Source of the DNA: a bacterium
GTDB lineage: Bacteria; Bacillota; Clostridia; Lachnospirales; Lachnospiraceae
Direction of reading: 5' to 3'
DNA length: 58,023 nt
NCBI GenBank assembly: GCA_023666335.1
Contig: JAMPCE010000015.1
Location: 1 to 58,023 of the forward strand
In this document: positions 287-48,391 of the stretch, piece after piece
Position numbering within the stretch: position 1 is the stretch's first letter
Layout of the letters: each line of letters starts with the position of its first letter
Made by a program: the position numbers and the translations under genes
The notes under the pieces: model-generated
The model's database searches: none
What the model was told of the DNA's origin: nothing
The model's input: only the letters and a program-made list of their open reading frames with translations

Positions 287-2545
287 ATGGCCTTAAAAGA
301 ATTTCCTGCGGGCACGCAGCTGATTCAGGACGAACAGAATCTGACAGCCCTGCATGTTATCGCAAAAGGAAGCGTATGCGCCTCCTATCCGGGAGGTACT
401 TTTTATCTGAAAAAGGGGGACGTCATCGGCGTCTGCGAGCTTTTTTACGGCTCTCACTTTATCTCTTACGAAACAGAGGACGCCACATCGATCGCCTCCT
501 ATCCGTGTACCGCCGCACAGCTTTCTCTGCTGTTTGAGAAGAGCGTAGATCTGGCAAACATGATCGTCTCCTCCCTTTTCCGGCAGTTTCGGGAAATCCA
601 TGATCTGTATGAACTGACCCGCTTTGACTGTGATAATCTCTATCATTTTCTGCTGGATCACTATGAAGAATACAAGTCTGTCTGCGTCAAGCACAAGATC
701 ACGCCGCGGGCGCTGCCCGACATGGACGATCTGACGCCGATCGTGATAGAAGACGATCTGGAGGGGTGGCTTGGCGGCTACTATGAGCAGTTGACTACTA
801 TGGTCACTGAAAAATCTGCCAAATTTCACAAGGCGGATTTCCTTGCGGGCGTCGTCTTAAAAGCGGATCAGGACATCTACCGCATCATTTCGCTATGCCG
901 CCTTTTCTTTGATTATAAGTCAGAGGTCGCAAAACTCCTTATGAATGAGAACCGCCTCGATCTGTTCGATCTCTACACGGGCGTCTTATATAAGATCGAT
1001 TCCAACGATCCGGACTCCGTGAGTCTGACCGCAACGCTCTCCACCATGATGATCCAGTTGGAGGATCTGCCCGGGATCGACAAGGATATGTATCAGCAGC
1101 GCGTAACGGAATACCGCGAAAAACTGGTGAAACTCGGAGAACACACCGAGGAGGAAACTGCCACGGTGGACGATGTGCCCGATGTGGAACACTCTATGGA
1201 TACGATCCTCTCCTACTCGGAAGTGAGCAGCGAAACCGCTGCCGCTTTCAGGGACGCGGTGAATAAGTTTGCAAAGATGACGGATAAGAACGCTTCCGAC
1301 GACGCCGCGAGAAAGCTGCGTCTCTCCATCTCGAAGCTCTTTTATCAGATTTACGAGCAGGCTTTCTTAAAGAGTCTGCAAGACCCTGCTTCCGTTCCCA
1401 AAGTCGTGAAGATGTTCTTCAACTTCGGTTATGTCGATGAAAATCTGGCAGGTCTGGAGAATGCCGCCTATCTGTATAAGATCGTTGACAAACTCCCCAC
1501 CGACCCGAAGCGGAAAGTCTACACCGCCTACGAGTGGTTTACGGCGATTTATCAGGGCAAAAAATCACCGAGCCGCAACGAGTTCGACTCCGACTTTGCC
1601 ACATTTCTGCGCGAGCAGAAAATGTCGGGCAATATCACCGCTGCGGATGAGGCACGGATGGTAAACGATCCGAAAGAGCAGGTGCTCTTTGAGATCCGCA
1701 ATATGTTCCCTTCCGTCAACAAAATTACGTTTGGTCGTGTATTGAGTTTCTGTCCGGTCTTTTCGGAACACAATGTCTTAAAGGATCTGGACGCTTCGCT
1801 GGTTTCCGTCGATAAGGTGGAGACAGCTTTCAAACAGGTGCGGGAGATCGATTTCAGCGCCTACTACCGCGATGTGATCTACACCAATCCGGAGATCGGA
1901 ATCGGAAAGGAATCCGTCGGCGTGGAAGTCCTTCCCGATATCATCCTGATGCCCAATATGGGAACCCGCGGCATCGCCTGGCAGGAGATCGAGGGGCGCA
2001 AGCGTACGACGCCTGCCCGCATGATGGTCTCCATCTTCCAGATGGAGGATCTGACCAACATCTTAGTCCGTCTGACCGGAGACTTCCGCTGGGAGATGTG
2101 CAAGCGCGTACAGGGCGCCCGCTGGAACGACATTTCGGAGCCTTCGCTCACCAGCGAATACTTCGATTATATCCAGTTCTACCGCAAAAACCGCGACCTT
2201 TCTGCGGATGCCAAGGATAAGATCAAGCTCAGTATGCAGAAAGCGAAAAACAGCTATAAGGAAATGTTCATCAGAGACTACGAGGCTTGGATCCTTTACG
2301 AGGGCGCCGGTTCTCCCAGACTGAACAAGGTATCGCGGGGCATCATCTTTACCTACTGCCCGTTCTCGAAAGAGATCCGCACCAGGCTGACGGCAAACCC
2401 GCTCTACAAGGATACTATGGCGCGCTATGACGTGAAGCTGGCGCAGAAGCTCCACCACTTTGACAACATCTTCCAGAAGTTGAAAAACACGGGCACACCG
2501 ATCCCGAAAGAGTTGCAGGATCAGTACGATTATCTGCGGATGTGA
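287..2545 (+). CDS. Large protein with N-terminal cyclic-nucleotide-binding domain
   Basis: 752 residues. Residues about 5-110 look like the beta-roll of the CRP/FNR cyclic-nucleotide-binding superfamily: PAGTQLIQDEQ, then GSVCASYPGGTFYLKKGDVIGVCELF, then a C-terminal helix. No DNA-binding helix-turn-helix follows. About 640 mostly helical residues come next that I cannot assign to a characterised family; they contain no obvious membrane segment or enzymatic motif. CRP-family regulators are about 220 residues, so this is not an ordinary regulator. The ligand may be a nucleotide or nothing, because I cannot confirm the phosphate-binding cassette. The gene appears monocistronic, with its own promoter and a strong terminator, and is convergent with the transporter gene. 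Function unknown; the N-terminal fold is fairly secure. Confidence 0.7.
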   Translation: MALKEFPAGTQLIQDEQNLTALHVIAKGSVCASYPGGTFYLKKGDVIGVCELFYGSHFISYETEDATSIASYPCTAAQLSLLFEKSVDLANMIVSSLFRQFREIHDLYELTRFDCDNLYHFLLDHYEEYKSVCVKHKITPRALPDMDDLTPIVIEDDLEGWLGGYYEQLTTMVTEKSAKFHKADFLAGVVLKADQDIYRIISLCRLFFDYKSEVAKLLMNENRLDLFDLYTGVLYKIDSNDPDSVSLTATLSTMMIQLEDLPGIDKDMYQQRVTEYREKLVKLGEHTEEETATVDDVPDVEHSMDTILSYSEVSSETAAAFRDAVNKFAKMTDKNASDDAARKLRLSISKLFYQIYEQAFLKSLQDPASVPKVVKMFFNFGYVDENLAGLENAAYLYKIVDKLPTDPKRKVYTAYEWFTAIYQGKKSPSRNEFDSDFATFLREQKMSGNITAADEARMVNDPKEQVLFEIRNMFPSVNKITFGRVLSFCPVFSEHNVLKDLDASLVSVDKVETAFKQVREIDFSAYYRDVIYTNPEIGIGKESVGVEVLPDIILMPNMGTRGIAWQEIEGRKRTTPARMMVSIFQMEDLTNILVRLTGDFRWEMCKRVQGARWNDISEPSLTSEYFDYIQFYRKNRDLSADAKDKIKLSMQKAKNSYKEMFIRDYEAWILYEGAGSPRLNKVSRGIIFTYCPFSKEIRTRLTANPLYKDTMARYDVKLAQKLHHFDNIFQKLKNTGTPIPKELQDQYDYLRM

Positions 2546-2605
2546 TTACATATCGTAGTCCGCATTTGGAAAATCGCCGCGAGACAGCGGTATATACAAA
2601 TAAAG

Positions 2606-4128: not shown

Positions 4129-5913
4129 TTATTTCAGCACCAGCGCGGAATATCCCGGCATGACCGCTTTCCCTTCCTCAAAGCGGACCGCGTCCTCCCC
4201 CGTGGCAAGCGCGCCCCGCACCTGCGTCTGCGCTCCGATCTCTGCGCCGTTTAGTGTGATTCCCGTCAGATCCAGCTCCTGCGCTTCCGCTCCCGTCACG
4301 AAGAGCAGCAGAATTTCCGAGCCGTCATAGGTCTTTTTGATAGCGCAGACGCTCTCCTTTACTTCTTCCGCAGCAAGATCCCCCGCAAGGACATACTCCG
4401 CCGTTCCGCGGGCAATCTCCGGATTCTGGTTGCGGATCTTGATGACCTTTTTATAAAACGCGTAGACTGATGAAGCATCCTGTTCCTGCTCTTCCAGACT
4501 CTCGAATTTCATCTTGACCGTTTCCATATCCGCAGGGCCGTCGCACATCCCCGCCGCATCGGGATCCATGCTCCAGTACATGGGCGCGCGCTTATTCTCG
4601 TCCTTGCCGGAGCCTTTCATGCCGAGTTCCTCCCCGTAATAGAGGAAAGCCGAACCGCTCATAAACAGGTTCATCGCGCCCGCCAGTTTCGTCTGCGCAG
4701 CGGACTCCTCCCCGGCATAATACCCCGCGCTCCTCCCCATATCGTGATTTGTGTAGAAAGGCGCGTCAATATAGTTCTCGTTATAAGCGCCGTACGTCTC
4801 TTCCAGAGAAGCGATCGTTTCGCCGTATTTTGCTGCCGAACCGCCGTTCAACGCTTTCGAGATGATGCCGTCCTTATCCGCGAAAGCAAAGTCGAAAATG
4901 CTGTCGATCCCGCTCTCGTAATACTTTGCATAATCCGCCTGATCGAGCCACGCCTCGCCCACCAGATAAGCGTCCGCTTTCTGGGATTTGACCGTTTCGG
5001 TCAACCACGAGAGAAAGTCAATGTTTGCCTGGGGCGCGCCGGAGTAATACTCTTTCACCGCATCCAGACGAAAGCCGCCCACACCCATATCGAGCCAGTA
5101 TTTCGTGATCCCGGCGATCTCCATGCGCAGCGCCTCGCAATCCAGATTCAGATCCGGCATCTCCGACCAGAACTGCGCTTCGTAATACCAGTCCGTGCCT
5201 TCCACCGGATACCAGCCGCCGCCCTGCTCCTTTGAGAAATGATAATAGTTATAATAAGGGCAGTCCGCCGCGTTCGGTTCCGCGCCGCTTAAGTCCCGCA
5301 GATAGGCGCAGGCATCCTGAAACCACGGATTCTGTGATGAACTGTGGTTCAACACCAGATCCATGATGACCTTGATGCCCCGCTCATCGCACGCCGCAAG
5401 AAAGCCCTGAAAATCTTCCAGCGTCCCGTATTCCTCATCAATGGCATAGTAATCCGCCACATCGTACTTGTGATAGGTAGGCGAAGGATTCACCGGCATC
5501 AGCCAAATCCCATTGCAGCCTAGATCCGTGTCCGTCGCGTCGTCCCCGTCGTTGATGTAATCCAGTTTCGAGATCAGCCCCTGCAGATCTCCCACGCCGT
5601 CGCCGTCGCTGTCGCAGAAAGAGTAGACGAACACCTCATAGTAGGTCCGATAGTTGTCGTCGATCATCTGCAAGGGAAGATCCTCCCACGGTTCCCTGCC
5701 CGCCGCAGCCGCCTCCTCCGAGACGCTTTTGGCCGCACTGTCGTTGTCGTTTTCACTCGGCTCTCCTGCCTCCGCCGCCTGCTCTCCTGCCGGTTCGGGA
5801 CTTTCCTCCCCTAACGTGTTTTGCAGGGGGATATTCTCCCCCTGCATACCACAACCGCAAAGCAGCGCCGCCGACAGAATACCTGCCATAGCTCTTTTTT
5901 GCGCATTATTCAT
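4129..5913 (-). CDS. Alpha-amylase family (GH13) lipoprotein
   Basis: 594 residues. A lipoprotein signal ends at Cys21 (LLCGC), followed by a Glu/Ala/Ser-rich linker to about residue 70, so the enzyme is probably tethered outside the membrane. The GH13 barrel shows nucleophile Asp284 (GFRLDAV), acid/base Glu320 (VGEAW) and transition-state Asp391 (TNHD). A DSDGDGVGD loop at 101-109 resembles the calcium-binding loop of bacterial amylases. It should hydrolyse alpha-glucans such as starch or maltodextrin; exact specificity is unknown. Its ATG overlaps the malG stop by 4 nt (ATGA), so it is the last gene of the ABC-transporter operon and probably feeds that importer. Confidence 0.9.
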   Translation of the reverse strand: MNNAQKRAMAGILSAALLCGCGMQGENIPLQNTLGEESPEPAGEQAAEAGEPSENDNDSAAKSVSEEAAAAGREPWEDLPLQMIDDNYRTYYEVFVYSFCDSDGDGVGDLQGLISKLDYINDGDDATDTDLGCNGIWLMPVNPSPTYHKYDVADYYAIDEEYGTLEDFQGFLAACDERGIKVIMDLVLNHSSSQNPWFQDACAYLRDLSGAEPNAADCPYYNYYHFSKEQGGGWYPVEGTDWYYEAQFWSEMPDLNLDCEALRMEIAGITKYWLDMGVGGFRLDAVKEYYSGAPQANIDFLSWLTETVKSQKADAYLVGEAWLDQADYAKYYESGIDSIFDFAFADKDGIISKALNGGSAAKYGETIASLEETYGAYNENYIDAPFYTNHDMGRSAGYYAGEESAAQTKLAGAMNLFMSGSAFLYYGEELGMKGSGKDENKRAPMYWSMDPDAAGMCDGPADMETVKMKFESLEEQEQDASSVYAFYKKVIKIRNQNPEIARGTAEYVLAGDLAAEEVKESVCAIKKTYDGSEILLLFVTGAEAQELDLTGITLNGAEIGAQTQVRGALATGEDAVRFEEGKAVMPGYSALVLK

Positions 5914-6752
5914 CCTTTGACAGAACCTCCCGTAATACCCTCTACATAGAACTTCTGCATGATCACGAACAGGATCGAGATCGGAATCGCGATGATCACG
6001 CCGCCCGCGCAGAAGACTGAGAAGTATTTGTTGATCATGGATTTTCCTAACATATTAAACAGCCCGATCGCCACCGTCCAGTCTGTCGCCACACCGGAAT
6101 TGAGCATCAGCTTTGCGAACACGAAGTCGCCCCACGGCGCCAGGAACGCATTGATGACCGTGTACACGATGATCGGCTTGGACAGCGGAATGATCACCGA
6201 CCAGAAGATCTTCGCCTCGGAAGCGCCCTCCAGCCGCGCCGCCTCGCTTAAGGAGATGGAAATCGTATCCATAAATCCCTTACAGATCAGATAACCGAGT
6301 CCCGCGCCCGCGGAGTACACGATGATCATGCCGAGGTGGCTGTTGGTCAGTCCGATCGTCTTTAAGATAAAGTAGATCGCGATCATGGACAGCACGCCCG
6401 GGAACATATTGAGGATGATGCTGAAACTCATCAGCCCTTTTCTGCCTGCAAAGCGAAGTTTACTCATGGTGTAGGACACCATCAATACCAGGATGGTAGA
6501 GATCAGGCAGGAAAAGATCGCGATGATCAGCGTATTCATAAACCACCTGTTGTACTGCACGATGGAATCCGAACGGAAAAACAACTGCGCGTAATTATCT
6601 AACGTCCACGTCTCCGGGAAGAAGTGGGAGGTGTTGATTCCCTTATACCCGCTAAACGACGTAACAAACAGCCAAAGGATCGGGATCAGCCATACCACCG
6701 ACAGGAAAAGTAAGATCAAATGTCTTATCACTGATTTTATTTTTTTCATCAT
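5910..6752 (-). CDS. malG: Sugar ABC transporter permease, MalG type
   Basis: 280 residues, six predicted membrane helices. The EAA loop that docks the ATPase is present (EAARLEGASE, then IPLSKPII). It closely resembles MalG/MdxG/GanQ, the second permease of oligosaccharide importers. Its ATG overlaps the malF stop by 4 nt and its own stop overlaps the GH13 start by 4 nt, so the three are translationally coupled. No ATPase gene is in the operon; Firmicute importers of this class usually share an MsmX-like ATPase encoded elsewhere. Whether the substrate is maltodextrin or galacto-oligosaccharide is unresolved. Confidence 0.88.
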   Translation of the reverse strand: MMKKIKSVIRHLILLFLSVVWLIPILWLFVTSFSGYKGINTSHFFPETWTLDNYAQLFFRSDSIVQYNRWFMNTLIIAIFSCLISTILVLMVSYTMSKLRFAGRKGLMSFSIILNMFPGVLSMIAIYFILKTIGLTNSHLGMIIVYSAGAGLGYLICKGFMDTISISLSEAARLEGASEAKIFWSVIIPLSKPIIVYTVINAFLAPWGDFVFAKLMLNSGVATDWTVAIGLFNMLGKSMINKYFSVFCAGGVIIAIPISILFVIMQKFYVEGITGGSVKG

Positions 6753-8176
6753 TGAAACTCCTCCTCCTTATCTCCTTTGATGGTTCTGGTAAAGGTCACC
6801 AGAGTGAATGCCGCACAGATAATGAAGACGATGATACCGATGACGGAAGCCATCTTGTAGTTGTAATACTCATTCGTCAGTCTGAACAGCCAGGTAACAA
6901 GCAGATCGACTTCTTTCGCATTGGAGTTTGCGAGGAGCTGGTCGCTTGTGACGAACACATCCTGCGTCAGCAGATAGATGACGTTGAAGTTGTTGATATT
7001 CTTGACGAAATCCGTGATCAGGCTCGGCCCGGTCACAAACAACACATACGGCATCGTGATCTTGATGAAGATCTGCAAAGGGTTCGCGCCGTCGATGCGC
7101 GCGCTCTCGATCTGATCTTCCGGAATGTTCATCAGGACGCCCGTTGCCACCAGCATCTGATACGGTACGCCGATCCAGATATTGATGATGACGATCATCA
7201 CCTTCGCCCAGCCGGGATTCGTCAAAAACGGGATGTAACTCAAATTAGAAGGCACAAGCCCGATATTTTTCAAAAAGCCCGTAAAGCCGATGCTGTTGCA
7301 GAACGTATTGACGATACCGTTGTCTGCAAAGAAGTTACGGACCAAAAGCAGGGTCACGAACTGCGGCACCGCGATCGCTATGATGAAGAGCGTTCTCCAC
7401 AGCTTAGGGAGCTTCGTCTTCTTGTCGTTGATGAATTTCGCCATCAGGATACCGCCGATATAGGTGGTAAAGGTCGCGAGCACTGCCCACTCCAGCGTCC
7501 AGACCAGTACCTTGCGGAACGAATAACCGAACGTTACGGTCACGGAACTGGTGAACAGGTTCTTGAAGTTCTTCCACCCCACCCAGGTAAACAGGGCGTT
7601 CGGAGGCATATGCTGCTGATCGTAATTCGTAAAGGCAACCGCAATCAGGACTAAGATCGGCAGAATGTTCATGATAATGATACCGATCGCCGGCAGGGTC
7701 AGCAGCGTAATATGGAATTTTTCATTAAACATCATCCGCACGTCTTCGGCAAAGGTGTTGATCTCTTCACCGTTTTCCTTTTGAAGCTGCAGACGATATA
7801 CCGCTTTCATGTTGGAAATATAAAACAGAATAAATACTAAAATCAAAAACAACGAAATAATGGAATTCAACAGGATCAGGAACGAGTTATCGTAGTCATT
7901 GACCGTACTGGTCATAGTCAGCGGATCAAAGACCTGCTCAAACTGCACCGTGCCCAACGTCCCAAACTTAGCAAGGTTCGGCGCCGCATAACCGACACAC
8001 AGCACCACGAACAGCGCCTCGACCAGACACATGATGATACCGTTGATCACCTGTTTTCTCGCAAAATAGCCCACGCCCATCAGGACAGCCGACAGCTTCA
8101 CCCAGATATCCCCCTTGGCAAAAGCCGTCCCCAGATCTCTAAAATATTTTCCTACTGCATTCAATGCGTTCTTCAT
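6749..8176 (-). CDS. malF: Sugar ABC transporter permease, MalF type
   Basis: 475 residues, longer than the roughly 300 of a minimal permease because of an N-terminal region with extra membrane segments, as in MdxF and GanP. The EAA loop reads ESARIDGANPLQIF with a following ITMPYV. It pairs with the MalG-type protein to form the transmembrane channel. The gene follows malE after about 110 bp that contain an imperfect stem-loop, which may lower downstream expression relative to the abundant binding protein. A copy of the TTGAC-N7-GTCAA palindrome lies inside it at 7899-7915 (one arm base differs). Confidence 0.88.
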   Translation of the reverse strand: MKNALNAVGKYFRDLGTAFAKGDIWVKLSAVLMGVGYFARKQVINGIIMCLVEALFVVLCVGYAAPNLAKFGTLGTVQFEQVFDPLTMTSTVNDYDNSFLILLNSIISLFLILVFILFYISNMKAVYRLQLQKENGEEINTFAEDVRMMFNEKFHITLLTLPAIGIIIMNILPILVLIAVAFTNYDQQHMPPNALFTWVGWKNFKNLFTSSVTVTFGYSFRKVLVWTLEWAVLATFTTYIGGILMAKFINDKKTKLPKLWRTLFIIAIAVPQFVTLLLVRNFFADNGIVNTFCNSIGFTGFLKNIGLVPSNLSYIPFLTNPGWAKVMIVIINIWIGVPYQMLVATGVLMNIPEDQIESARIDGANPLQIFIKITMPYVLFVTGPSLITDFVKNINNFNVIYLLTQDVFVTSDQLLANSNAKEVDLLVTWLFRLTNEYYNYKMASVIGIIVFIICAAFTLVTFTRTIKGDKEEEFQ

Positions 8177-11127: not shown

Positions 11128-11271
11128 AGCGGGCGATGGGATTCTCAAGGAGCCCCTTGAAAAACATCAGCACTTAGCGAGGTATGGAGTTGCACGGCAA
11201 CTCCCGAGCTTAGTGTCTGCTATGTTTTTCACGGAGCGGGAGCGCGGCGACGGAGAATTCCATCGCCCGCT
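11128..11271. repeat. 144-bp near-palindromic hairpin element (copy 1)
   Basis: The 19-bp ends AGCGGGCGATGGGATTCTC and GAGAATTCCATCGCCCGCT match at 18 positions as inverted repeats. Both arms also carry TGAAAAACAT further in, and the centre is GGAGTTGC-ACG-GCAACTCC. The whole intergenic element can therefore fold into one long imperfect hairpin. Its core (11168-11224) recurs at 20661-20713. No open reading frame is inside. It resembles a MITE or REP-like sequence. Confidence 0.7.
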
Positions 11272-13512: not shown

Positions 13513-14100
13513 TCAGACTGTGATCGATATGCAATGCTGCCGGATCGCGAACGCGTCGAAGTAGCGGTTTTCCAGGGGGATCCACTCGTTTACAAAGCGC
13601 TGATAGCGCTCCTCGCCGTTCCTTGCAAGAATCCGTTTTTTCCGGATCTCGGGAGAGACTTCCACAAAGAACCGCGCCTGATAGACGTCCCCGAAATAAG
13701 GATGGCAGCTGTAGGAACCCTCGATGATATTCAATCTGCGCCAGGGCAGCCGCACGGTCTCCCCAAACGACATAGTGGCGCAGCAAAAACGCCGATAGGA
13801 AAGCCCGCCCCTGTCCGCAATATGAGCAAGCACTTCCTCCTGAAACCGCTCGTAATCCACATTCCCGCCGGGCTGTGCGTAACGCGCAGACGTCCGCTGC
13901 TCCGGCTGTAAAAAGAAGTCATCCATAGGAATCAGGCGGCACTCGTACTTTGCCGCAAGCGCCTCACCGAGCGTCGATTTTCCGCCGCCGCAGCAGCCGT
14001 CGATCGCAATAATGACCGTATCAGTCAATGGCGTTTCCCGCAGCGCCCGCTCAATGACCGTAGTAACGACATCCGGGATTTCGATTGTCAGCACACTCAT
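13513..14100 (-). CDS. P-loop kinase, uridine-kinase-like
   Basis: 195 residues from the ATG at 14100, chosen over an in-frame ATG 54 bp upstream because GGAGG lies 5 bp before it. The Walker A motif GCCGGGKST is at residues 35-43. MDDFF and the later RYAQPGGNVDYERF match the uridine kinase / phosphoribulokinase-like fold, in which this region binds the phosphate acceptor. A terminal WIPLENRYFDAF follows. It probably phosphorylates a nucleoside or vitamin-like small molecule. It lies 22 bp downstream of an ECF-transporter S component, suggesting transport followed by phosphorylation trapping. Substrate unknown. Confidence 0.75.
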   Translation of the reverse strand: MSVLTIEIPDVVTTVIERALRETPLTDTVIIAIDGCCGGGKSTLGEALAAKYECRLIPMDDFFLQPEQRTSARYAQPGGNVDYERFQEEVLAHIADRGGLSYRRFCCATMSFGETVRLPWRRLNIIEGSYSCHPYFGDVYQARFFVEVSPEIRKKRILARNGEERYQRFVNEWIPLENRYFDAFAIRQHCISITV

Positions 14101-14122
14101 TTTTCCTCCATTCCGAAACGTT

Positions 14123-14677
14123 TTACGCAGAGGGCTTTTCTCCGTCATCCGCAAGATCCCGCAGCGCGCCCGCCCGCACGAGCGCCATCATGATGACGGG
14201 AATCAGCACGATCTGCAAGATGATCCCCGGGATCGCATTGAAGAACGCTCCGGCTAAAAAGATCTGCGCGGAAAAAGCATTGCCCGCCATGCCGTAGAGC
14301 GGGATGCAGACGATTCCCCAGACGATCCTGCCCGCGATCATCGCGCAAAGCAGGCTCACATAGAGATAGGGCGTTTTCTTCGGCAGTTTTTTGTACAAAA
14401 GCCCCGTCACCAGACCGTAGACTGCAAGCTCCGCCGCCATCGCCGCCGCAGTCGGCATGAGGGCAGGCATGCCGAACAGGATACTTCGCAAAATCGGCGT
14501 GATCAGCCCCACCGCCAGCCCGTACTGCCAGCCGCAGATAAAACCGCACAATAAAATCGGAATGTGCATCGGCAGCAGCATATTGCCGATCTGTTGGATC
14601 TGCCCCGTCAAAAACGGCAGAACGATGCCGAGCGCCATGAAAAATGCCGCCAATACCAGTTTTTTCGTCTGTTTCAT
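14123..14677 (-). CDS. ECF transporter S component
   Basis: 184 residues from the ATG at 14677 (GGAGG 6 bp upstream). Almost entirely hydrophobic, with about five or six helices. The hallmark of this subfamily is MLLPMHIPILLCGFICGWQ followed by GLITPILRSILFG. Such S components bind a vitamin or similar nutrient and use a shared EcfA/A'/T module encoded elsewhere. The substrate is not evident. The gene is 25 bp after a LacI-type regulator and 22 bp before a kinase gene; the three form one leftward operon. Confidence 0.85.
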   Translation of the reverse strand: MKQTKKLVLAAFFMALGIVLPFLTGQIQQIGNMLLPMHIPILLCGFICGWQYGLAVGLITPILRSILFGMPALMPTAAAMAAELAVYGLVTGLLYKKLPKKTPYLYVSLLCAMIAGRIVWGIVCIPLYGMAGNAFSAQIFLAGAFFNAIPGIILQIVLIPVIMMALVRAGALRDLADDGEKPSA

Positions 14678-17705: not shown

Positions 17706-19508
17706 TTATTCCGGCAGGCTTGCGCTGATGCACAGCGCCCCATACCCCGCCCGCGCATCCGGATAGTCCGCCACCCCGCGGATCGGCTTCGCGCCCTTCC
17801 GCAGATACGCCTTTACTTTCTCTCCGTACAGATAGGGGTCGTTTCCCAAGACGATCCCCCACTGCATGAGCAGAGCCGCCGCTCCCGTCACGAAAGGCGC
17901 GGCAAAGGAAGTCCCCGTAACCGCCGAAAGACCGCCGTTCCGGTCGGGCGCGATGACGCCCACGCCCGGCGCCACGAGATCGGGCTTTACATAGGCGTCC
18001 GAAGTGCGGCTGTTCACCTGTTCCTGATAGAGATAACCCCTGCCCGAAAAATCCGCATAGGACTCGTACACCGGGTCATAGGCGCCCACCGTGATCACGC
18101 CGGACGCCGTGGAGGGGATCGTGAGCGTCACATCCGGCGTCGGGCGGACAAAACGGGTATCGGCGCTCAACACGGCAGCGGAGGGCAGATAGAACGTATA
18201 ATTTCCCGTGACGATCCGCTGCGGGTGCAGGCGGAACGTCCACACGCCCTGCTCCAGATACCGATTCCCCGCCGCCGGCAGAAAATCAAAATAAAGTTCC
18301 TGGCTTGTCATATAAGGCGCAGGCTCCCCGTTATAAAAGAGAATCTGCGTCTGTCCCAGCCGTACACTCTGTTTACCGGGTCGGTCAGTATCCGCCGTAA
18401 AAAGGCTGCCGGACGGTGACAGCACTGTCACAAGGTAACGGTCAGCATACTCTTTCCAAAGCTGTACATTCAAGCCCGTCTCATAAGCGCCTACCGCCAT
18501 TTCCACGACCGCGTCCTGCCCGCTGACAGCTGTGTCGGTTCCATCCGCCGCATAATTGACTGAATCAGTCACCGTCCTGCGACTTTCGTTTTCCCGCAGA
18601 CTGCCGCCCACATGCCCGCCCGAAGCGCCCTCGTTGCCGCTGCCGGCGCAGATGACCGTCCTGCCGATCTCCGCGATATTATCCAGAAAGCGTTCCAATA
18701 AAGAAGAACCGTTGTGCGCCCCGTAGGTATTGCCGAAACTTAAGTTGACGGCAAGCGGCATCGCCAATTCCCGCGCTTTATTGACTGCATAGGTCAATGC
18801 CCGCATCAATTCCGTCGTCCGCGGAAACGAATCCGCCCGGGGCGTTCCCAGCCGCACGATCAACAGATCGCTCTCTCTGGCGATCCCCGTATAGGCTGCG
18901 CCGCGCGCACCGCCGTTTCCCGCGGCGATCCCCGCCACCGCCGTACCGTGTCCGCTGGTGTCGATGCTGGGGACGATCTGTAACGCCGCCTGCCTGCTGC
19001 CCGCCGCGAGCGCGGCATTGATCTCCTGCTCGCCAAATTCCCGCCCAAGCACCTGATCCCAGAGGAAGCGGATCCTTGTACTGCCGTCCTGCTTTCTAAA
19101 ATCTTCATTCCAATAACTGATGCCGGAATCGATGACCGCCACCAGCACGCCTCTCCCCGTAAGTTCACGATGTAGCGCGCTTCCCGGCGCAAAGCAGGAT
19201 GCCGTGCTTCCTTGCAGATCCGAGAAAAAGAGACGTTTCGGCTTCTCCACATATTCGATCTGTTCGATCTGCGCAAGCCTTTCCATCTGCGTCTCGGGGA
19301 CTGTCAGGATCGCATAGCCCGCGATCAGCTCCTCCACGCGGATGCCGAAAGCCGCCAGTCCCTCTAACGACCCGTGATACTTGACGATCACCTCCCAGGT
19401 CTTTTCGTCATCGTCATAGCCCACGTTCAATTCCAGCGACCGCTCCCGTTCAACGGGTGCGGTATCCAGCGCCAGATTGAGCAGATTCTCATTCTTCTGC
19501 GAGTCCAT
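17706..19508 (-). CDS. S8 family serine peptidase, Csp-like subtilase
   Basis: 600 residues. The catalytic triad is intact: Asp127 (AVIDSGI), His187 (SGHGTAVAG) and Ser534 (GTSFAAP). An N-terminal region of about 100 residues looks like a prodomain (LIAGYAILTVPETQMERL) and there is no signal peptide. Between the catalytic His and Ser lies a jelly-roll-like insert, as in clostridial CspB/CspC, which act in spore germination. This organisation and the lack of export signal support a Csp-like protein. A role in germination is inferred from homologues only. It is monocistronic with a strong AGGAGG site. Confidence 0.82.
   Translation of the reverse strand: MDSQKNENLLNLALDTAPVERERSLELNVGYDDDEKTWEVIVKYHGSLEGLAAFGIRVEELIAGYAILTVPETQMERLAQIEQIEYVEKPKRLFFSDLQGSTASCFAPGSALHRELTGRGVLVAVIDSGISYWNEDFRKQDGSTRIRFLWDQVLGREFGEQEINAALAAGSRQAALQIVPSIDTSGHGTAVAGIAAGNGGARGAAYTGIARESDLLIVRLGTPRADSFPRTTELMRALTYAVNKARELAMPLAVNLSFGNTYGAHNGSSLLERFLDNIAEIGRTVICAGSGNEGASGGHVGGSLRENESRRTVTDSVNYAADGTDTAVSGQDAVVEMAVGAYETGLNVQLWKEYADRYLVTVLSPSGSLFTADTDRPGKQSVRLGQTQILFYNGEPAPYMTSQELYFDFLPAAGNRYLEQGVWTFRLHPQRIVTGNYTFYLPSAAVLSADTRFVRPTPDVTLTIPSTASGVITVGAYDPVYESYADFSGRGYLYQEQVNSRTSDAYVKPDLVAPGVGVIAPDRNGGLSAVTGTSFAAPFVTGAAALLMQWGIVLGNDPYLYGEKVKAYLRKGAKPIRGVADYPDARAGYGALCISASLPE
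18415..18429. other. TGAC-N6-GTCA palindrome inside the subtilase gene
   Basis: TGACAGCACTGTCA is a 14-bp inverted repeat with a 6-bp spacer. It differs in spacing from the TTGAC-N7-GTCAA family also present in this gene, and serves as an internal comparison for that motif. Confidence 0.4.
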
Positions 19509-24710: not shown

Positions 24711-25543
24711 CACGTTTTTTGCATCATCCGTACTGACCGCGCCAGCCACTTTGCCACCCCGTCCTCGTCATTGGACGCGATCACATCCGTGGCGAGAGCC
24801 TTAAGCTCCGGCGCCGCATTCGCCACGGCGTAACATTCATCGGAGATCTCAAACATGGGAATATCGTTTACGGCGTCCCCAAAGGACACCACCTTTTCAC
24901 AATGCCACAACGCTTTCAGTTTCTTGACCGCCTCCGCCTTGGACGCCTTCTTCGGCATGATCTCCAAAAAGTATTCCGGGCGGTAGAGCTCCTGCTGCAA
25001 AGTGCAGCGAAACCGACTGTCTTTTGCAAATATCTCATAGAAAGGGACCAGCTCCTCCCTGTCCGCAATGCAGGTAAAATAAAAGATATCGCCCTCATAC
25101 AGACAAGCCGCATCCGAAAGCGGTCTAAATCTCCTGTCTCCTTTTCTCGCATCCAGATAGCGGCGGATGCCCTCATTCTCCCTGCCCGCCACATAGGATA
25201 CCCGCTCTGCACCGTCCACATAGGCGTAAACCAGAGGATTCGCGCCGCGCTCTTGCAAAATGCCGCTCACAAAGGATGCCTCTTCTTCCGAAAAGGAGAG
25301 CGAAGCGATCACTTCCTCCGTTCCGGGATCAATGATCAGCGCGCCGTTGTAGGCAATGACCGGAATGGTCGTCGCCAGTCCTTTCGCCACCACAGATGCG
25401 GAGACAAGAGAACGAGCCGTGGCATAGGTAAACTGCATCCCTCCTGCCACAAGCCCGTTGATCGTTCTGACACTGTATTGACTGATTCGGTCATTGCTGT
25501 TCAGCAGCGTGCCGTCCAGATCCGTAACATAAAGCGTCTTCAC
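24710..25543 (-). CDS. HAD-superfamily phosphatase, Cof type
   Basis: 277 residues from a GTG at 25543. GGAGG lies 8 bp before this GTG and the protein then begins MKTLYVTDLDGTLL, as in the family; upstream ATGs have poor sites. HAD motif I is DLDGTLL, and motif IV is FGDAVNDIPMFE. The large IIB-type cap lies between. Cof-type enzymes dephosphorylate sugar phosphates, nucleotides or pyridoxal phosphate; the substrate is not evident. It follows the S1-domain gene by 57 bp and ends within the tandem repeat. Confidence 0.88.
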   Translation of the reverse strand: MKTLYVTDLDGTLLNSNDRISQYSVRTINGLVAGGMQFTYATARSLVSASVVAKGLATTIPVIAYNGALIIDPGTEEVIASLSFSEEEASFVSGILQERGANPLVYAYVDGAERVSYVAGRENEGIRRYLDARKGDRRFRPLSDAACLYEGDIFYFTCIADREELVPFYEIFAKDSRFRCTLQQELYRPEYFLEIMPKKASKAEAVKKLKALWHCEKVVSFGDAVNDIPMFEISDECYAVANAAPELKALATDVIASNDEDGVAKWLARSVRMMQKT

Positions 25544-37077: not shown

Positions 37078-37089
37078 CACATGTGTCAG
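37074..37089. other. Perfect palindrome at a convergent gene junction
   Basis: CTGACACATGTGTCAG is a 16-bp perfect inverted repeat covering the DUF4364 stop and the last codon of the DUF5722 gene. It has no T tract, so it is not a typical terminator. It resembles the TGACACGCGTGTCA palindrome upstream of the lacI-type gene. Confidence 0.5.
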
Positions 37090-38990
37090 TGTCTGGATAT
37101 GATCTGATCCCAGCTGGAAACGCCGATGACCCGCAGGGCAAAATCCGTATACTCCGCCGCCTGCGGGGTGTCCACATACTTAAACGCCTCGTAGATGGAC
37201 TTGCGGCCGCCGCCCACCGTACAGATCCCCAGCGCCAATCCCTGCGCCACCTCTTCCGGCGCGTCCGTCTCTCTGGAAAAGAGCATACTGTCCACATACT
37301 GATTGGCTTCGATGACCTTGTAGGCATAGACAAAGGAAGCCGACTGCAATTCCTGCCCCTGCGAGGAGGTGTAGCCCATCTCGCTCAAGATCAGGTGACG
37401 CACTTGTCCGTCGTCCGTCAGCATCTCCGGCTTTTGCAGATAATCCGTGAGCACATGCAGATTCTTGATGGTGATCACGGGGGTCGTCTCCGTCTCCAAT
37501 ACATAGGACGCCGCCCTGCCGCCGCTGCTCCACGCCTTTGCGCTGGTCAGCGGGTAATTGTAAGGGTGCTGCGCCAGCCCCCAGTCAATATTCCCCTCCG
37601 CTTTCAGATTGCGGTTGAACTCGTCCAAAATGTCCTTGGAAGCGTAGCCGCTTTTGGAGTAAAGGCTCTTTCCCCATTGCTGGTCCAGCGATATGTATAA
37701 TCTGGCGTTGCCGTTCACGCTCAAGATCGCATTGTAAAAGATGCGGAACGCCCTGGCATACTCGTCCACATAGCTTGCCGTATCCATGTACTCGATGTAG
37801 TTCCACTCGCTTCTGGCATTGATCTCGTTGGCAATGACCCAGTTCATGACCTTTCCATGCCCCGTACCGGAATAGCGGTTTGCCAGAAAAGAGGCGATGG
37901 CTGCTATGGCTTCCGTGCCGCTCGCATCCGTGGCATTGAACGCATAATAGGGCGCGTGGCCGCCTGAACGGGCTTTTGGGTGAATCAGCTCCGAAAGGGA
38001 AGATCGGTCGTTTAAGACAATGGCTGTCGTGATGATCCCCCTGTTTGTGAGGGAGGTAAAGATATAGTCGTACTCCGCGATGATCTGCCCGTTAAAGGCG
38101 TAAGTCTTTCCATTATAAGTATAGTAGACCGTCGGATAGTAATCGTTGCTTGTAGGACCGAGGATCCTGCTCAGAGGAATGTTATAAGCCGCATGCCTTA
38201 CCCCCAGATCGTCCAATTCCGTAGTCGCGAGTTTCTCCGGATCCACGAGCAGCCCTTTTTTTGATTTTGTATCGCCGAAAGACGGCATATATTTGGCGAT
38301 CGCCTCGGGATTCGTGATATAGTGCGGTCTGGTGATGGGCAGATAGGCGCCGTCCTTTTTGACCGCCACGACAAATTTGGAAAACAGGCGGGAACTTGCC
38401 GTATTGTAGTTTAGATTGACCGAGAAAGTCAATTCCACATCCTTCTGGTCTTCGATGATGTATTCGCTGGCTGCAAGATCCGTCTGGTAGGTCTTTTCCT
38501 CGAAAAGGTAATAGTAGCCGTCGTCACTGACCGCAAGGTCCTTTGCTTTCATGGCAATGTCGATCTTTCCGGTCTCCGTGTTGATCAGGCAGCTCTCGAT
38601 CGTAGCAAAATCCGCCGCATTTTCCGCCGTGACCTCCACTTCTTTCGGTCTCTTGCGGATGCCCTCTATCATATAGCGCGCCGCATCCACCAGCGCCTGC
38701 GTGGTGTCTTTTCCGGCGTTTTTCCGAACGCTCTCTTTTCGGTGCTGCGTCCTTGCGTACTCGGCAAGCTCCACAGCCTCCATATGTACCATAGCCTCTA
38801 CCACCGCCGCCTCGGCTTTGATCTGCTCCGCGTGCATGGTCGCCGTGTAACCCGCAAATCCGCCGGCTCCGGACAGTACAAGAGCGCAGAAAAACAGAAA
38901 GAGCCATTTCCTCCCTCTCCCCGTTCTGCGCTTTTTCACAGTCTTATCTGCCGTTGTCTTTGCTTCGTCCGCTCTATCGGCTGTTCCCAT
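37086..38990 (-). CDS. DUF5722 membrane-anchored protein, probable glycosidase-like barrel
   Basis: 634 residues. One membrane helix at about 27-47 (WLFLFFCALVLSGAGGFAGY) anchors an extracytoplasmic protein. A beta-rich N-terminal part of about 200 residues is followed by a region typical of DUF5722 (ILGPTSNDYYPTVYYTYNG onward). In that region WVIANEINAR and HLILSEMGYT are placed like the acid/base Asn-Glu and the nucleophile Glu of clan GH-A hydrolases; this catalytic role is inference. It follows the polysaccharide deacetylase gene by 88 bp but has its own promoter. Confidence 0.78.
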   Translation of the reverse strand: MGTADRADEAKTTADKTVKKRRTGRGRKWLFLFFCALVLSGAGGFAGYTATMHAEQIKAEAAVVEAMVHMEAVELAEYARTQHRKESVRKNAGKDTTQALVDAARYMIEGIRKRPKEVEVTAENAADFATIESCLINTETGKIDIAMKAKDLAVSDDGYYYLFEEKTYQTDLAASEYIIEDQKDVELTFSVNLNYNTASSRLFSKFVVAVKKDGAYLPITRPHYITNPEAIAKYMPSFGDTKSKKGLLVDPEKLATTELDDLGVRHAAYNIPLSRILGPTSNDYYPTVYYTYNGKTYAFNGQIIAEYDYIFTSLTNRGIITTAIVLNDRSSLSELIHPKARSGGHAPYYAFNATDASGTEAIAAIASFLANRYSGTGHGKVMNWVIANEINARSEWNYIEYMDTASYVDEYARAFRIFYNAILSVNGNARLYISLDQQWGKSLYSKSGYASKDILDEFNRNLKAEGNIDWGLAQHPYNYPLTSAKAWSSGGRAASYVLETETTPVITIKNLHVLTDYLQKPEMLTDDGQVRHLILSEMGYTSSQGQELQSASFVYAYKVIEANQYVDSMLFSRETDAPEEVAQGLALGICTVGGGRKSIYEAFKYVDTPQAAEYTDFALRVIGVSSWDQIISRH

Positions 38991-42676: not shown

Positions 42677-44419
42677 TCAATTTTCCTCCAGATTCATATA
42701 GTTCAGATAAAGCCCCGCAAAGTTCTCCCGCTTCGCCAGATTGATGCTTTCCGTCACAGCTTTTGCAGAAAGCACATCCTCAAGGGCTTCTCTTTCGAGC
42801 CTGCCCGCAAGGAGCGCACGTCCCATCAGAAACGCGCCCGCAAGCGACGTATTCCCCACAGCCTGCACCCTGCCGCGCAGCTTTGCGGGCAGAAGCCCGA
42901 TGGCAAAAGCCGCCTCCACATCCAATTCATAGCCGAAACCGCCCGCCAGATACAGCCGCTCGACCCGCGGACGTCCCATCTCCTCCCACAGGATCTCGAT
43001 TCCTGCGCGTATGGCGGCTTTCGCCATCTGCAAGGCGCGGATATCTTCCTTTTTCATACGACAGGACTGCCCCGGCTTTACAAACAGGGGAATCCGCCCC
43101 GTCTCCACAGGCACTCCCTCCGAAAAATAGGGCTCCGCCAAAAGTCCCGTCTCATCCAGAATACCCCGCCGCAAAAACGACGCGGCAAGGGCAATCCGAT
43201 CCGTACCGAAAAGCGCGCTTTCCGCGCCGCCCTCAAAGGCAGGACCCGCAGCCGTGGCTGTGACAAGCATGCGTCTTTCGTCCGTAAGCGCAATTTCCCC
43301 GTTCGTCCCCAGATCGACCAAGAACCGAACCCTGCCTGCCGATGCCGCAGCGTCAGCCCTTTCGTCCTGTGTCCGTCCGGTTTCGCCGACCTGCATCCGT
43401 TCGCCTCCGGCATCCGCGAAAGCGGGCAGCATCCGCAGCGCATAAAGCCCCGCCACGATATCGCCGCCCACAAAGGCGCTGATACCGGGGGTGAGATAGA
43501 CGGGCAGCGTTCCAAGCGCAGTCACGGAATCGGCGGACAGACCTGACAAAAGACCCGTATCGTCCGCAAGACACGCAAACAGCGCGGAAAGCGTCGTCTC
43601 CTGCACCCCGATCTCCACAGGCGTAAAAGGGCTCCTCCCTAAACTCTGTACATCATATCCCATCAGCAGATGCTCCATCGCGGTATTTCCCGCGACACAC
43701 ATCCCGCAAAGCCGCGCCTTGCCGGACGTGAGGAACCGCTTTACGCCCCGCAAGAGCGTTTCGCAGACCAGCCGCTGCAATTCTTCCCTGTGTCCCGTGC
43801 AGGAAGCCTGAATGCGGGAAAGCACATCCGCACCGTAACGCCGCTGCGGGTTATGCTCGCAGTAAGTATCCAGTACCTCTCCCGCCGCCAGAGACATCAA
43901 CTGCATCGCTATGGTGGTGGTGCCCAGATCCACCGCGATCATACAATCCATATCGCCTGATTGGTTTGTTAAAATAACATTCGATATTTTTAACCCGTCT
44001 TTCGTGGATTTCGTAACATCCGATATTCGATTTTCAGATTGGGATTTTTCTTGACTGATTGAGTCAATATTTTCTGACAGGGGTATCGTTTTTGTCAGGA
44101 CAGGCACATTTGCCCCCTCATGACGCGGCAGTCTGACCACGCAGTCCGTCCGGGGCTTCGCCGTGCAGGCAAGTCGGTATCCCTGCCGCAGCTCTTCCGG
44201 TGAGAAACGCTTTCGCTCCATAGCGGTCGGCATTGTCGCGCCGTCCAGAAACTGCACTGTGCAGCCGCCGCACTCTCCCCTGCCGCCGCACAGACTGTCC
44301 GTAAGCAATTGATTTTCCAGCAAAACTGGCAGTAATGTCACAAAAGGATCCTGTGTCACCAGAATCCTTGTCTGTTTTTCGTCATCCATAACGACTGTAA
44401 TTTTTATTTTTTCAGACAA
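42677..44419 (-). CDS. Ferredoxin-ASKHA protein (RACo-like, DUF4445)
   Basis: About 580 residues from a TTG at 44419, which has GAGGAG about 10 bp upstream and overlaps the DUF4250 stop by 8 nt; ATGs at 44437 and 44389 have no site. An N-terminal [2Fe-2S] domain carries CGGRGECGGC and a later RLACTAKP. The ATP-binding ASKHA domain begins AVDLGTTTIAMQL and includes FLVDLGTNGEIAL. The family reductively reactivates corrinoid proteins with ATP. No corrinoid protein or methyltransferase gene is in the window, so its partner is unknown. Confidence 0.87.
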   Translation of the reverse strand: MSEKIKITVVMDDEKQTRILVTQDPFVTLLPVLLENQLLTDSLCGGRGECGGCTVQFLDGATMPTAMERKRFSPEELRQGYRLACTAKPRTDCVVRLPRHEGANVPVLTKTIPLSENIDSISQEKSQSENRISDVTKSTKDGLKISNVILTNQSGDMDCMIAVDLGTTTIAMQLMSLAAGEVLDTYCEHNPQRRYGADVLSRIQASCTGHREELQRLVCETLLRGVKRFLTSGKARLCGMCVAGNTAMEHLLMGYDVQSLGRSPFTPVEIGVQETTLSALFACLADDTGLLSGLSADSVTALGTLPVYLTPGISAFVGGDIVAGLYALRMLPAFADAGGERMQVGETGRTQDERADAAASAGRVRFLVDLGTNGEIALTDERRMLVTATAAGPAFEGGAESALFGTDRIALAASFLRRGILDETGLLAEPYFSEGVPVETGRIPLFVKPGQSCRMKKEDIRALQMAKAAIRAGIEILWEEMGRPRVERLYLAGGFGYELDVEAAFAIGLLPAKLRGRVQAVGNTSLAGAFLMGRALLAGRLEREALEDVLSAKAVTESINLAKRENFAGLYLNYMNLEEN

Positions 44420-44582
44420 ACTGATTTTTCTCCTCATCGTAATGATAGTCAATATTTGCCAGTTTTTCGATCAACTCGCTGCGATCTGCATCCAGATCCT
44501 CACAGAGCGAATCCAGACTGTCATAAAAATCGCGTAGTTTTAAGTTTACATAACTCAACAACATCACTGGATCTTTCGGCAT
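44412..44582 (-). CDS. DUF4250 protein
   Basis: 56 residues from the ATG at 44582. MPKDPVMLLSYVNLKLRDFY and the ending IDYHYDEEKNQFV match the small clostridial family DUF4250. No function is established. Its stop overlaps the proposed start of the ferredoxin-ASKHA gene. Confidence 0.85.
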   Translation of the reverse strand: MPKDPVMLLSYVNLKLRDFYDSLDSLCEDLDADRSELIEKLANIDYHYDEEKNQFV

Positions 44583-45761: not shown

Positions 45762-45808
45762 CGTCTTTTCCTTCCGATCGCCTTTTTTCTTCTATCCCTT
45801 AGAATACT

Positions 45809-48391
45809 TTATTTCTTCCGCGCCGTCAACGCCCCGTTCTCCGCCGCGATGAGGATCGTATCTTTCGCTTCCACCTGATCGGAAAGGATGAGCCTTGCGG
45901 ACAGCGTCTCCACATGCTTCTGGATATAACGCTTCAAAGGTCTTGCCCCGTAGACGGGATCGTAGGCATTGTCCACGATGAACTGCGCCGCCTCGGGCGC
46001 AAGCTCGATCGACAGCTCCCTGTCCGCCAGCCGCCTGTTCAAGTCCGCCACGATGAGTCCGATGATGCCGCTGATATTTCCCTTTGTCAAAGGCTTAAAG
46101 AGGATTGTCTCGTCCAGACGGTTCAAAAATTCCGGTCGGAAATGGCTGCGCAGTTCGCCCATCACCAGTTCTTCCGCCTGCGGCGTGATCGCTCCCTCCA
46201 CATCGATCCCGTCCAGCAGATAGTCCGCGCCGATATTGGAAGTCATGATGAGGATCGTATTTTTGAAATCGACCGTCCTGCCCTGCGAATCCGTGATGCG
46301 CCCGTCGTCCAGCACTTGCAGGAGCACATTGAACACATCGGGATGCGCCTTTTCGATCTCATCGAAGAGCACCACCGAGTACGGTTTCCTCCTGACCGCT
46401 TCGGTCAATTGTCCGCCCTCCTCATATCCCACATATCCGGGAGGCGCTCCCACCAGCCTGGATACCGAATGTTTCTCCATATATTCGCTCATGTCGATGC
46501 GCACCATGTTCGTCTCGTCATCAAACAGGGACGCCGCCAGCGCCTTTGCCAGTTCCGTCTTGCCGACACCCGTAGGACCGAGGAACAGGAAAGAACCGAT
46601 GGGCTTCGTCGGATCCTTGATCCCCGCTTTGGAACGAATAATAGCATCTGTTACCTTTGAGACGCCCTCGTCCTGCCCGATCACCCGCTTGTGCAGCTCC
46701 TCGTCCAGATGCAGGGTCTTGTTGCGCTCGCTCTCCGTCAGCTTTGCCACCGGAATGCCCGTCCAGCGGGAAATGATCTTTGCGATCTCCTCGTCCGATA
46801 CGCTCTGGTGCACCAGAGAAAGTTCCTCCTCGCCGACCTTTTCCTCCTCGATCTCCAACTGCTGTCTGAGCGCCGGAAGCCTCCCGTAACTCAATTCCGC
46901 CGCTTTCTCATAATCCCCGTCCTGCTGGGCGATCTGGATCTGGCTGTTCACATCGTCTATCTCCTCGCGGATTTTCGATAATTTTTCCACGGATGCCTTT
47001 TCGTTCTCCCACTGTGCCATGCGGTTTTGCAGCTCCTCTTTCAACTCCGCAAGCTCCTTTTGCAGATTGGCAAGGCGCTCCCTGCTTAAGTTGTCATCTT
47101 CCTTTTTCAGGGCGGTCTCCTCGATCTCCAACTGCATGACCCTGCGGCGCAGCTCGTCTAACTCCGTCGGCATAGAGTCAAGTTCCGTCTTGATCAGGGC
47201 GCACGCCTCGTCCACCAGGTCGATCGCCTTATCCGGCAGGAAACGGTCGGAAATGTAGCGGTTTGAGAGCACCGCCGCGCTGACCAGCGCATTGTCCATG
47301 ATCTTGACGCCGTGGTAGACCTCGTAACGCTCTTTTAAGCCGCGCAGGATTGAGATCGTATCCTCGACCGTCGGCTCCTCGACCATAACGGGCTGGAAAC
47401 GCCGCTCCAGCGCCGCATCCTTTTCAATATACTGGCGGTACTCATCCAAGGTCGTCGCGCCGATACAGTGCAGCTCACCTCTGGCTAACATCGGCTTTAA
47501 CATATTGCCCGCATCCATCGCGCCGTCCGTCTTGCCCGCGCCCACAATGGTGTGCAGCTCGTCAATAAAGAGGATGATCTGCCCGTCGCTGTTCTTCACG
47601 TCGTCCAGCACCGCTTTTAAGCGCTCCTCAAACTCGCCGCGGTACTTCGCGCCCGCCACAAGCGCGCCCATATCCAGAGAAAAGATCTTCTTATCCTTAA
47701 GACCCTCCGGCACGTCGCCCCGAACGATACGCTGCGCCAGTCCCTCCGCAACGGCGGTCTTGCCGACGCCCGGCTCGCCGATCAGCACGGGGTTATTCTT
47801 CGTCTTGCGGGAAAGGATACGGATCACATTGCGAATCTCCGTATCCCTGCCGATGACCGGATCGAGTTTCTGGCTCCTCGCCCGCTCCACCAGATCCTGT
47901 CCGTACTTCTCCAGCGTATCATAGGTGGCTTCCGGATTGTCCGAGGTCACGCGCTGGTTGCCGCGCACCGTGGACAGCGCCTGCAAAAACCGCTCTTTTG
48001 TGATGCCAAACTCCCGAAAGATCTCCCTGATCTCCTTATTGGGATGCTTTAACATGGCAAGGAAGAGATGTTCCACGGACACATACTCGTCGCCGAGCGC
48101 TTTCGCCTCATCCTCCGCGCCAATCAGGACTTTATTCAGATCCTGTCCGATAAAGACCTGACCGCCCTGCACTTTCGTGCGTTTGGAAAGCCCCTGCTCC
48201 ACCCGGTTTGTAAAGTATTCTTTCTGTATCTCCATCTTCTCGATCAGCTTCAAAATCAGGCTGTCATCGATGGTGAGCAGGCTGAATAACAGGTGTTCTT
48301 CTTCAATCTCCTGATTGCCGTACTCATAGGCGAGTTTTTCGCAGCCCTCCACCGCCTGTATGGATTTCTGTGTAAATTTCGTTAAGTTCAT
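45809..48391 (-). CDS. clpB: ATP-dependent disaggregase ClpB
   Basis: 860 residues, full length. A double Clp N-domain (1-145) is followed by NBD1 with Walker [16 protein letters not shown], a coiled-coil middle domain at about 400-520, and NBD2 with [15 protein letters not shown] and a C-terminal ALSLRLI-type end. The hexamer works with DnaK to rescue aggregated proteins. Upstream is a sigma-A promoter whose -35 is overlapped by a CIRCE element, so it should be heat-inducible through HrcA. Confidence 0.97.

Follow-up and report, generated by a model that had tools for sequence, protein, structure and literature searches.

The 58,023-nucleotide stretch of DNA analysed here, called the window below, is contig 24 of a Lachnospiraceae genome of 3.1 Mb in 117 contigs (G000). 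Scattered through its genes are copies of a palindrome, TTGAC-N7-GTCAA in its strict form and TGAC-N7-GTCA in a short, looser form, to which we refer as M1; its consensus, ATTGACYRAWTYRGTCAAT, was built from 41 of 43 sites found in 329 kb of G000 (two were cut by the ends of stretches). A sequence-only reading of the window had reported fourteen short-form sites, eight of them strict, and all were recovered where it had placed them (Table 1), against dinucleotide-shuffle means of 0.46 (maximum of 3 in 100 shuffles) and 0.04, respectively. No site lies beyond position 46,407, as that reading had also claimed. Among the gene names that it proposed, clpB has a supporting match. The 21.7-22.56 kb segment, which holds sites 21976 and 22189 and had been taken for a repeat, is free of direct DNA repeats 20 bp or longer. 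Two further genomes recur throughout this analysis: G060, a relative of 3.8 Mb from the same genus, and G087, which belongs to another genus.

Table 1. M1 sites of the window with their fate in G060, and the gene of the small protein that adjoins the regulator gene T2 (see text) at four loci
Feature	Position	Strand	Remarks
M1 site TTGACTACTATGGTCAC	791..807	.	in gene 287-2545 (+); right outer base deviates; not retained in G060
M1 site TTGACCGTTTCGGTCAA	4988..5004	.	in gene 4129-5913 (-); G060 retains arms
M1 site TTGACCGTACTGGTCAT	7899..7915	.	in gene 6749-8176 (-); G060 retains arms
M1 site ATGACCGTATCAGTCAA	14012..14028	.	in called open reading frame 13513-14154 (-); G060 retains arms
M1 site TTGACTGAATCAGTCAC	18556..18572	.	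in gene 17706-19508 (-); not retained in G060
M1 site TTGACTGCATAGGTCAA	18781..18797	.	in gene 17706-19508 (-); G060 retains arms
M1 site TTGACTATTCCGGTCAA	21976..21992	.	in gene 21718-22542 (-); G060 retains arms
M1 site TTGACCATTTCGGTCAA	22189..22205	.	in gene 21718-22542 (-); G060 retains arms
M1 site TTGACTGATTCGGTCAT	25478..25494	.	in gene 24710-25585 (-); G060 retains arms
M1 site TTGACTATAGGAGTCAA	31192..31208	.	in gene 30252-31376 (-); G060 retains arms
M1 site TTGACTCGGAAAGTCAA	31976..31992	.	in gene 31321-32310 (-); G060 retains arms, 4/7 spacer bases differ
M1 site TTGACCGAGAAAGTCAA	38416..38432	.	in gene 37086-38990 (-); G060 retains arms
M1 site TTGACTGATTGAGTCAA	44051..44067	.	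in gene 42677-44452 (-); G060 retains arms, 4/7 spacer bases differ
M1 site CTGACCGCTTCGGTCAA	46392..46408	.	in clpB-like gene 45809-48391 (-); G060 retains arms
Small protein next to T2	L136:9969-10352		
Small protein next to T2	L137:10082-10510		
Small protein next to T2	L138:8419-8844		
Small protein next to T2	L139:9578-10162		

The excess of M1 extends over the whole of G000, which contains 281 short-form sites against 29 for a reversed-pattern control, and 122 strict sites against 2; G060 has 86 strict sites. Two of the earlier statements hold for the window but not for the genome. A spacing of one site every 3-4 kb describes the window, whereas the genome average is only about one short-form site per 11 kb, and the window is therefore an M1-rich region. 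Likewise, all fourteen window sites lie within independently called genes, but this does not reflect a special preference: in a 594-kb sample of G000, 52 of 58 sites are in genes, which matches the 87% of that DNA called as coding, so the in-gene share does not result from avoidance of intergenic DNA.

We showed that this excess is not an artefact of coding. In the 171,710 codons of the 594-kb sample strict M1 occurred 25 times, against 1.2 expected from shuffling synonymous codons within genes (maximum of 4 in 60 runs), and a codon-preserving shuffle of 102,963 codons of G060 gave 0.67 expected against 21 seen. Under such a shuffle of the 594-kb sample the strict form with spacers of 2-6 and 8-12 was at chance level, which confirms that the 7-bp spacing is selected; the shorter TGAC-N6-GTCA was elevated too (30 versus 8.3), mostly because of another palindrome, TGACA-N4-TGTCA. 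This comparison with a codon null and with other spacers, set beforehand, left the sequence-only reading standing. The codon phases also bore out its two reading frames, ten of the fourteen window sites reading [LMV]-T-x-x-V and four D-x-x-[SG]-Q, and codon habit or a shared peptide as the cause of M1 is rejected on account of the codon-preserving shuffle and this use of two frames. In an unbiased scan in which every pair of 4-letter words 0-12 bases apart was scored, M1 ranked first in the G060 coding sample. The same scan of G000 was headed by TAAC-N4-GTTA (M3), with M1 and GACA-N4-TGTC (M2) among the next palindromes and several ungapped, composition-like words scoring similarly.

The comparison with G060 revealed on what selection acts. 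The window is collinear with contig 8 of this genome (81.4% identity across 48,404 aligned bases), and all eight arm bases are retained at 12 of the 14 sites, compared with a phase-matched baseline of 0.24 (P 2e-6); in a comparison set of other 4-N7-4 palindromes the arms were retained in 49 of 183 cases. Of the positions that could change silently, 31 of 32 in the arms are identical between the two genomes but only 25 of 41 in the spacers, the proportion for all such positions being 0.625, and in most retained sites the spacer has been altered while the arms stay. The in-gene copies of M1 are thus held by selection acting on DNA and not on peptide. The conservation at synonymous sites that had been predicted for relatives was found in this one relative, and the claim of selection for DNA over a chromosome-wide set of sites is borne out by the codon null and the arm conservation in G060. 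A gene called glnS was followed across 64 relatives (at least two genomes seemingly entered twice: L137/L259 and L138/L292). Among the 32 closest loci, 26 retain its site 793, as against 1 of the remaining 32; for its site 1039 the corresponding figures are 12 among the 13 closest loci and 0 among the remaining 51. Neither overall fraction (0.42 and 0.19) exceeds the 95th percentile, 0.53, of the same-phase background in these 64 loci, and so glnS alone is illustrative and does not constitute a test.

Abundant M1 is restricted to few genomes. Among 120 genomes of the family, a large excess of the short form was seen only in G000, G060 and G087 (154 versus 28 in G087). Several others show a 3- to 6-fold excess (e.g. 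75/16, 70/14 and 58/9), and in the five of these that were checked strict copies number 0-2 in four and 10 in G080. In a draw of 392 genomes of the order, which did not include G060 and G087, the strict form with pyrimidine/purine (Y/R) ends had its maximum in G000, with 121 copies, no other genome exceeding 13; at least one copy occurred in 149 of the 392, most of the order having no or few strict sites. Within the genus, strict M1 was present in all 60 species sampled (1-121 copies, median 26.5), in total 2,049 copies against 34 for the control.

Palindromes of this kind are often bound by TetR proteins, and therefore the TetR genes of five genomes were listed and orthologs sought in the motif-rich ones. 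This analysis identified T2, a TetR-family protein of 200 amino acids encoded outside the window (G000:C117:38119-38718) and 97% identical to its G060 ortholog. In G000, G060, G536 and G087, M1 with at most one mismatch begins 6 bases past the -10 box of T2 (TATAGT/TATATT), i.e. at the likely transcription start of the gene, where it is likely placed to block the start of transcription. When, as a control, the TetR promoters of four genomes were compared (41 of 43 genes; L090 was omitted and L134 gave too short a sequence), M1 within one mismatch was found only at the four T2 orthologs. Within two mismatches of 12, it lies upstream of T2 in all 31 genus loci examined and, outside the genus, in 10 of the 14 examined, some of them only 35-42% identical (6 of 20 had been dropped because no start was recognised, and L162-L169 were left out). 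Named T2 loci, taken as the best 80 of 558, of which two had too little upstream DNA, carry the site in 52 of 78 cases, compared with 5.8% of 300-bp background windows; among the same best 80, the flanks of loci with T2 at 64% identity or more contain 21 strict sites in 379 kb and those of the rest none in 450 kb. Since M1 is conserved at the T2 promoter and occurs within one mismatch at no other of the 41 TetR promoters, it is very probably the operator of T2. We are accordingly strongly inclined to the view that T2 dimers would bind M1, and infer with high confidence, from the arrangement of the promoter, that T2 represses its own gene through this predicted operator.

Sequence and structure both mark the protein itself as a TetR protein. 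It has a TetR_N domain (PF00440, 51.6 bits, cut-off 24), its AlphaFold model is almost entirely helical (confidence score pLDDT 94.7), the PDB matches listed by sequence and by fold are, where named, TetR-type regulators, and Foldseek with VIA-align places it among many TetR proteins with tied Z scores; it falls below every NCBIfam cut-off. T2 at 61% identity or more was found in 56 of the 60 genomes of the genus, including all 28 with at least 90% completeness and at most 5% contamination, and the four without a match are 66-84% complete; records of the cultured relatives 1xD42-87 and 0.1xD8-71 also contain T2. Outside the genus, the genomes with at least ten strict sites and known T2 status, G087, G022 and G080, hold T2 relatives of 51, 62 and 42% identity; G334, G346 and G314 (10 sites each) stand outside this comparison. 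In each of the four genomes T2 has no neighbour that shares its direction of transcription; nearby lie the gene for a tRNA synthetase of Glu/Gln type (the glnS mentioned above) and the DUF2225 and DUF6062 genes, and a divergent gene codes for a small protein without a Pfam match. This small protein, which starts MAKKFGKLLLVTAAL (MASKFSKLLFFTATA in G087), adjoins T2 in two genera; the G087 copy was matched by eye and place, and the Pfam result applies to the G000 copy.

The distribution of M1 along the chromosome was examined in a sample of 1.63 Mb of the G060 genome, with a mean of 7.3 sites per 100 kb. Sites were present on nine of the ten sampled contigs and were densest on contig 8 (28 in 145 kb, or 19.3 per 100 kb), on contig 5, which carries T2 (17.6 per 100 kb), and at the end of contig 24 (14 in the last 39 kb). 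The 380-kb contig 1 and contig 31 had only 3.7 and 3.0 per 100 kb, and contig 30 none in 180 kb. Unevenness of this degree was matched by none of 50,000 random draws. The regional pattern does not stem from codon content, because codon-shuffle expectations per contig stay at 0.1-1.9 (rich, 24 seen against 0.9 expected; poor, 0 against 0.3). A division into core and accessory genes as the cause of density was unsupported by ten long open reading frames each from a rich and a poor stretch: the former, at the end of contig 24, included sensor kinases, an EF-G-like GTPase and a MATE pump, and the latter, on contig 30, ligA and feoB. Beside M1-rich DNA on contig 5 lies a 40-kb segment of 38-39% GC without M1, M2 or M3 (G060:C5:88501-128500; L253, L254), probably a recent insertion.

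Taken together, M1 would be the operator of a conserved, single-gene, self-repressing TetR protein, T2, that has spread into genes, where bound T2 may use the copies as chromosomal position marks in an architectural or a cell-cycle/division role, by analogy with SlmA and RefZ. Self-repression would match the level of T2 to the number of M1 sites. We consider this explanation as a whole somewhat probable, and, given binding of M1 by T2, a positional or architectural role fairly probable. Such a role is favoured because most copies lie in genes but do not gather at gene starts, no shared gene function was seen and the distribution is regional. The symmetric DNA-binding dimer proposed by the sequence-only reading is upheld; the candidate, however, is a TetR-family repressor and not the relative of MatP, Noc or ParB that it had suggested (these three were not searched for).

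Several observations weigh against this explanation. One of five control patterns, GATC-N8-GATC, is mildly uneven too (p 0.012; the other four controls, 0.46-0.98). No pattern of origin and terminus was observed in G060, as far as the contigs with dnaA and with the skew flip are concerned (the order of the others is not established), both being close to the sample mean: the dnaA contig has 6 sites in 80 kb (7.5 per 100 kb); the contig taken as the putative terminus, from skew and gene strand only, has 7.8 per 100 kb, with 14 sites in 179 kb and only 1 in the 40 kb around its + to - flip. Of the 78 named loci drawn from the best 80 of 558, 26 lack the operator, 10 of them titled Acetatifactor, with the recognition helix nearly unchanged. 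Another TetR gene, T1 (G000:C64:5714), has an M1-like site upstream in G000 and G060; as a binder of M1, T1 was rejected, this site having two mismatches and being absent in G536 and G087. The presence of T2 is also a poor guide to the number of sites. G511 holds T2 (73% identity) yet has 1 strict site in 6.1 Mb, and G031 holds it (60%) yet has 28 loose-motif copies, fewer than the 37 of the control; T2 alone therefore does not force the spread of sites. Conversely, G512, G540 and G545, with 8, 26 and 19 strict sites, yielded no T2 ortholog, at 68, 66 and 84% completeness.

The main alternative, though rather unlikely, is that T2 binds M1 as a global regulator of transcription with a large regulon, in which in-gene sites would act either as roadblocks or as operators for promoters internal to genes. 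T2 is, after all, a TetR protein with a standard operator-like site beside its own promoter, and PMC4591121 reports conserved, widespread intragenic binding for sigma54 of E. coli. A regulon of this kind is harder to reconcile with the strong regional clustering, with an in-gene share that merely follows coding density and with the lack of a shared function among site-bearing genes, few of which are annotated. Furthermore, gene 5' ends are not enriched: for 78 sites in genes longer than 600 bp, the counts in successive tenths were 5, 8, 11, 14, 9, 12, 7, 4, 5 and 3.

It is improbable that a different protein binds M1 and that T2 is merely one of its regulated targets. A conserved operator may mark a target as well as a self-regulated gene, and the poor prediction of site number by T2 in G511 and G031, together with the three incomplete genomes of the genus that have sites but no T2 match, fits such a protein. 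M1 at the start of T2 is, on the other hand, kept across genera even where the flanks hold no further strict site, M1 within one mismatch is absent from the 37 other TetR promoters examined, and a near-perfect dimer palindrome ahead of a TetR gene is the classic layout of self-repression. Still more improbable is a recognition tag of another sort, i.e. a signal for DNA uptake or restriction-modification, or one of phages or mobile elements spread by transposition; iterated short motifs of these sorts are known, but the M1 copies share only their arms and near-flank bases, not longer flanks, they are region-specific and they coincide with a conserved TetR operator-like site. The least probable reading, that M1 acts as an mRNA hairpin or is the outcome of a codon habit or a recurring peptide, could appeal to the ability of inverted repeats to form stems, to the peptide shared by ten of the window sites and to site 4988, where positions 6 and 12 changed together with pairing kept, but it is opposed by the two frames, by a codon-preserving null that is off by about 20-fold and by the absence of covariation between these positions (the combination C..A, read as T..G on the opposite strand, accounts for 45 of 75 distinct sites, close to the half expected under independence), and a hairpin is unsupported by the seven kept sites altered there, only one of which changed on both sides, the six others (14012, 18781, 21976, 31976, 38416 and 44051) on one.

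Returning to T2 as the probable binder of M1, its system may be set beside known ones. Ordinary self-repressing TetR regulators are likewise encoded by single genes with an operator beside their own promoter; their regulons, however, typically comprise a handful of promoter sites, in contrast to a hundred selected in-gene sites. RutR of E. coli is a TetR protein that binds within genes and shares the TTGAC half-site, but its box, TTGACCA-NN-TGGTCAA, has a spacer of 6 instead of 7, M1 sites are far more numerous, and T2 scores 30.5 bits where the cut-off of the RutR model is 368. The matS site of MatP resembles M1 in being a short palindrome with a GAC/GTC core and regional clusters; it differs in its spacer of 3 and its confinement to the terminus region (Ter), whereas M1 is found on the dnaA contig and many others and its likely owner is a TetR protein.

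Two further parallels are SlmA and RefZ. SlmA antagonises FtsZ as a DNA-bound protein, and its site differs in sequence from M1. Both SlmA and RefZ are TetR proteins whose chromosomal motifs are read, according to PMC6657595 and PMC4117426, as position marks for cell division, and SlmA as depicted there shares with T2 and M1 a TetR-family dimer, many chromosome-wide sites and a regional pattern. It is also described in PMC6657595 as having dozens of sites that avoid the terminus, against the 122 strict sites of G000 and the average density, without a clear void, of the putative terminus contig of G060. RefZ of Bacillus has five sites per chromosome according to the same paper, far from the strict-site numbers of G000 and G060, and T2 reaches 25.6 bits against a RefZ model cut-off of 180. 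No SlmA model is among the 19 NCBIfam matches of T2, but the library may hold none, and the absence of SlmA among the 50 Foldseek/VIA-align matches listed is uninformative on kinship. The resemblance of T2 to SlmA and RefZ is at most one of analogy, and its putative system is best called a new form of TetR-based, site-coded chromosome binding. As far as limited searches of open-licence PMC papers show, neither the M1 motif nor such a system in Lachnospiraceae has been described before, and the table of selected novel spaced motifs in PMC5217627 does not contain M1.

M1 is not the only palindrome scattered in this DNA. M3, ATAACRNNYGTTAT, occurs in the window at 39657, 40217, 41759, 53847 and 54765, and about 20 copies of TAAC-N4-GTTA were seen in sampled G000 genes, against 1.5 from the codon shuffle. 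It lies in the promoter of a further TetR gene, T3, in all four genomes (L117:669, L127:1032, L130:606 and L135:680), and among the 41 TetR promoters M3 within one mismatch is found only at the four T3 orthologs. The third palindrome, M2, TGACAcNNgTGTCA, occurs at 15751, 18417, 37075 and 50055 of the window and is dense in L022 and at 220-260 kb of G060 contig 1; the 594-kb sample of G000 contains 28 copies, of which 24 fall within called genes, and their distribution among contigs is likewise uneven. No owner of M2 was found in the places checked, which included the TetR promoters of four genomes. We put forward only as a speculation, and one that we doubt, that several self-repressing TetR proteins of one lineage of Lachnospiraceae have turned into chromosome-marking factors (T2 with M1, T3 with M3 and a further owner with M2), each with its own in-gene palindrome and its own territories; if this is true, the three palindromes would together encode position in several letters, using synonymous sites as the text.

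Other repeats were noted in the window, which has no match in Rfam. Short dispersed repeats lie at about 11141-11270, 16138-16345, 20039-20099 and 33221-33349, with matches of about 30-150 bp on many G060 contigs. An inverted repeat, AGAATTGC-N3-GCAATTCT, at 57790 is also present in L021, L026 and L054. Of nine copies of AGAAT-N9-ATTCT, five are flanked by TTGGTCGCAGGA and seven lie between called genes.

To conclude, this study points to a candidate protein, together with a defined site, in what may be a system spanning the chromosome of Lachnospiraceae, which are a major group of bacteria in the gut. It also reveals that coding DNA is under selection, apparently for the binding of a protein, on a scale of a hundred sites. 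Because the number of sites varies so widely among the species of a single genus while T2 is mostly kept, it should be possible to trace directly how such a system is gained, lost and used.

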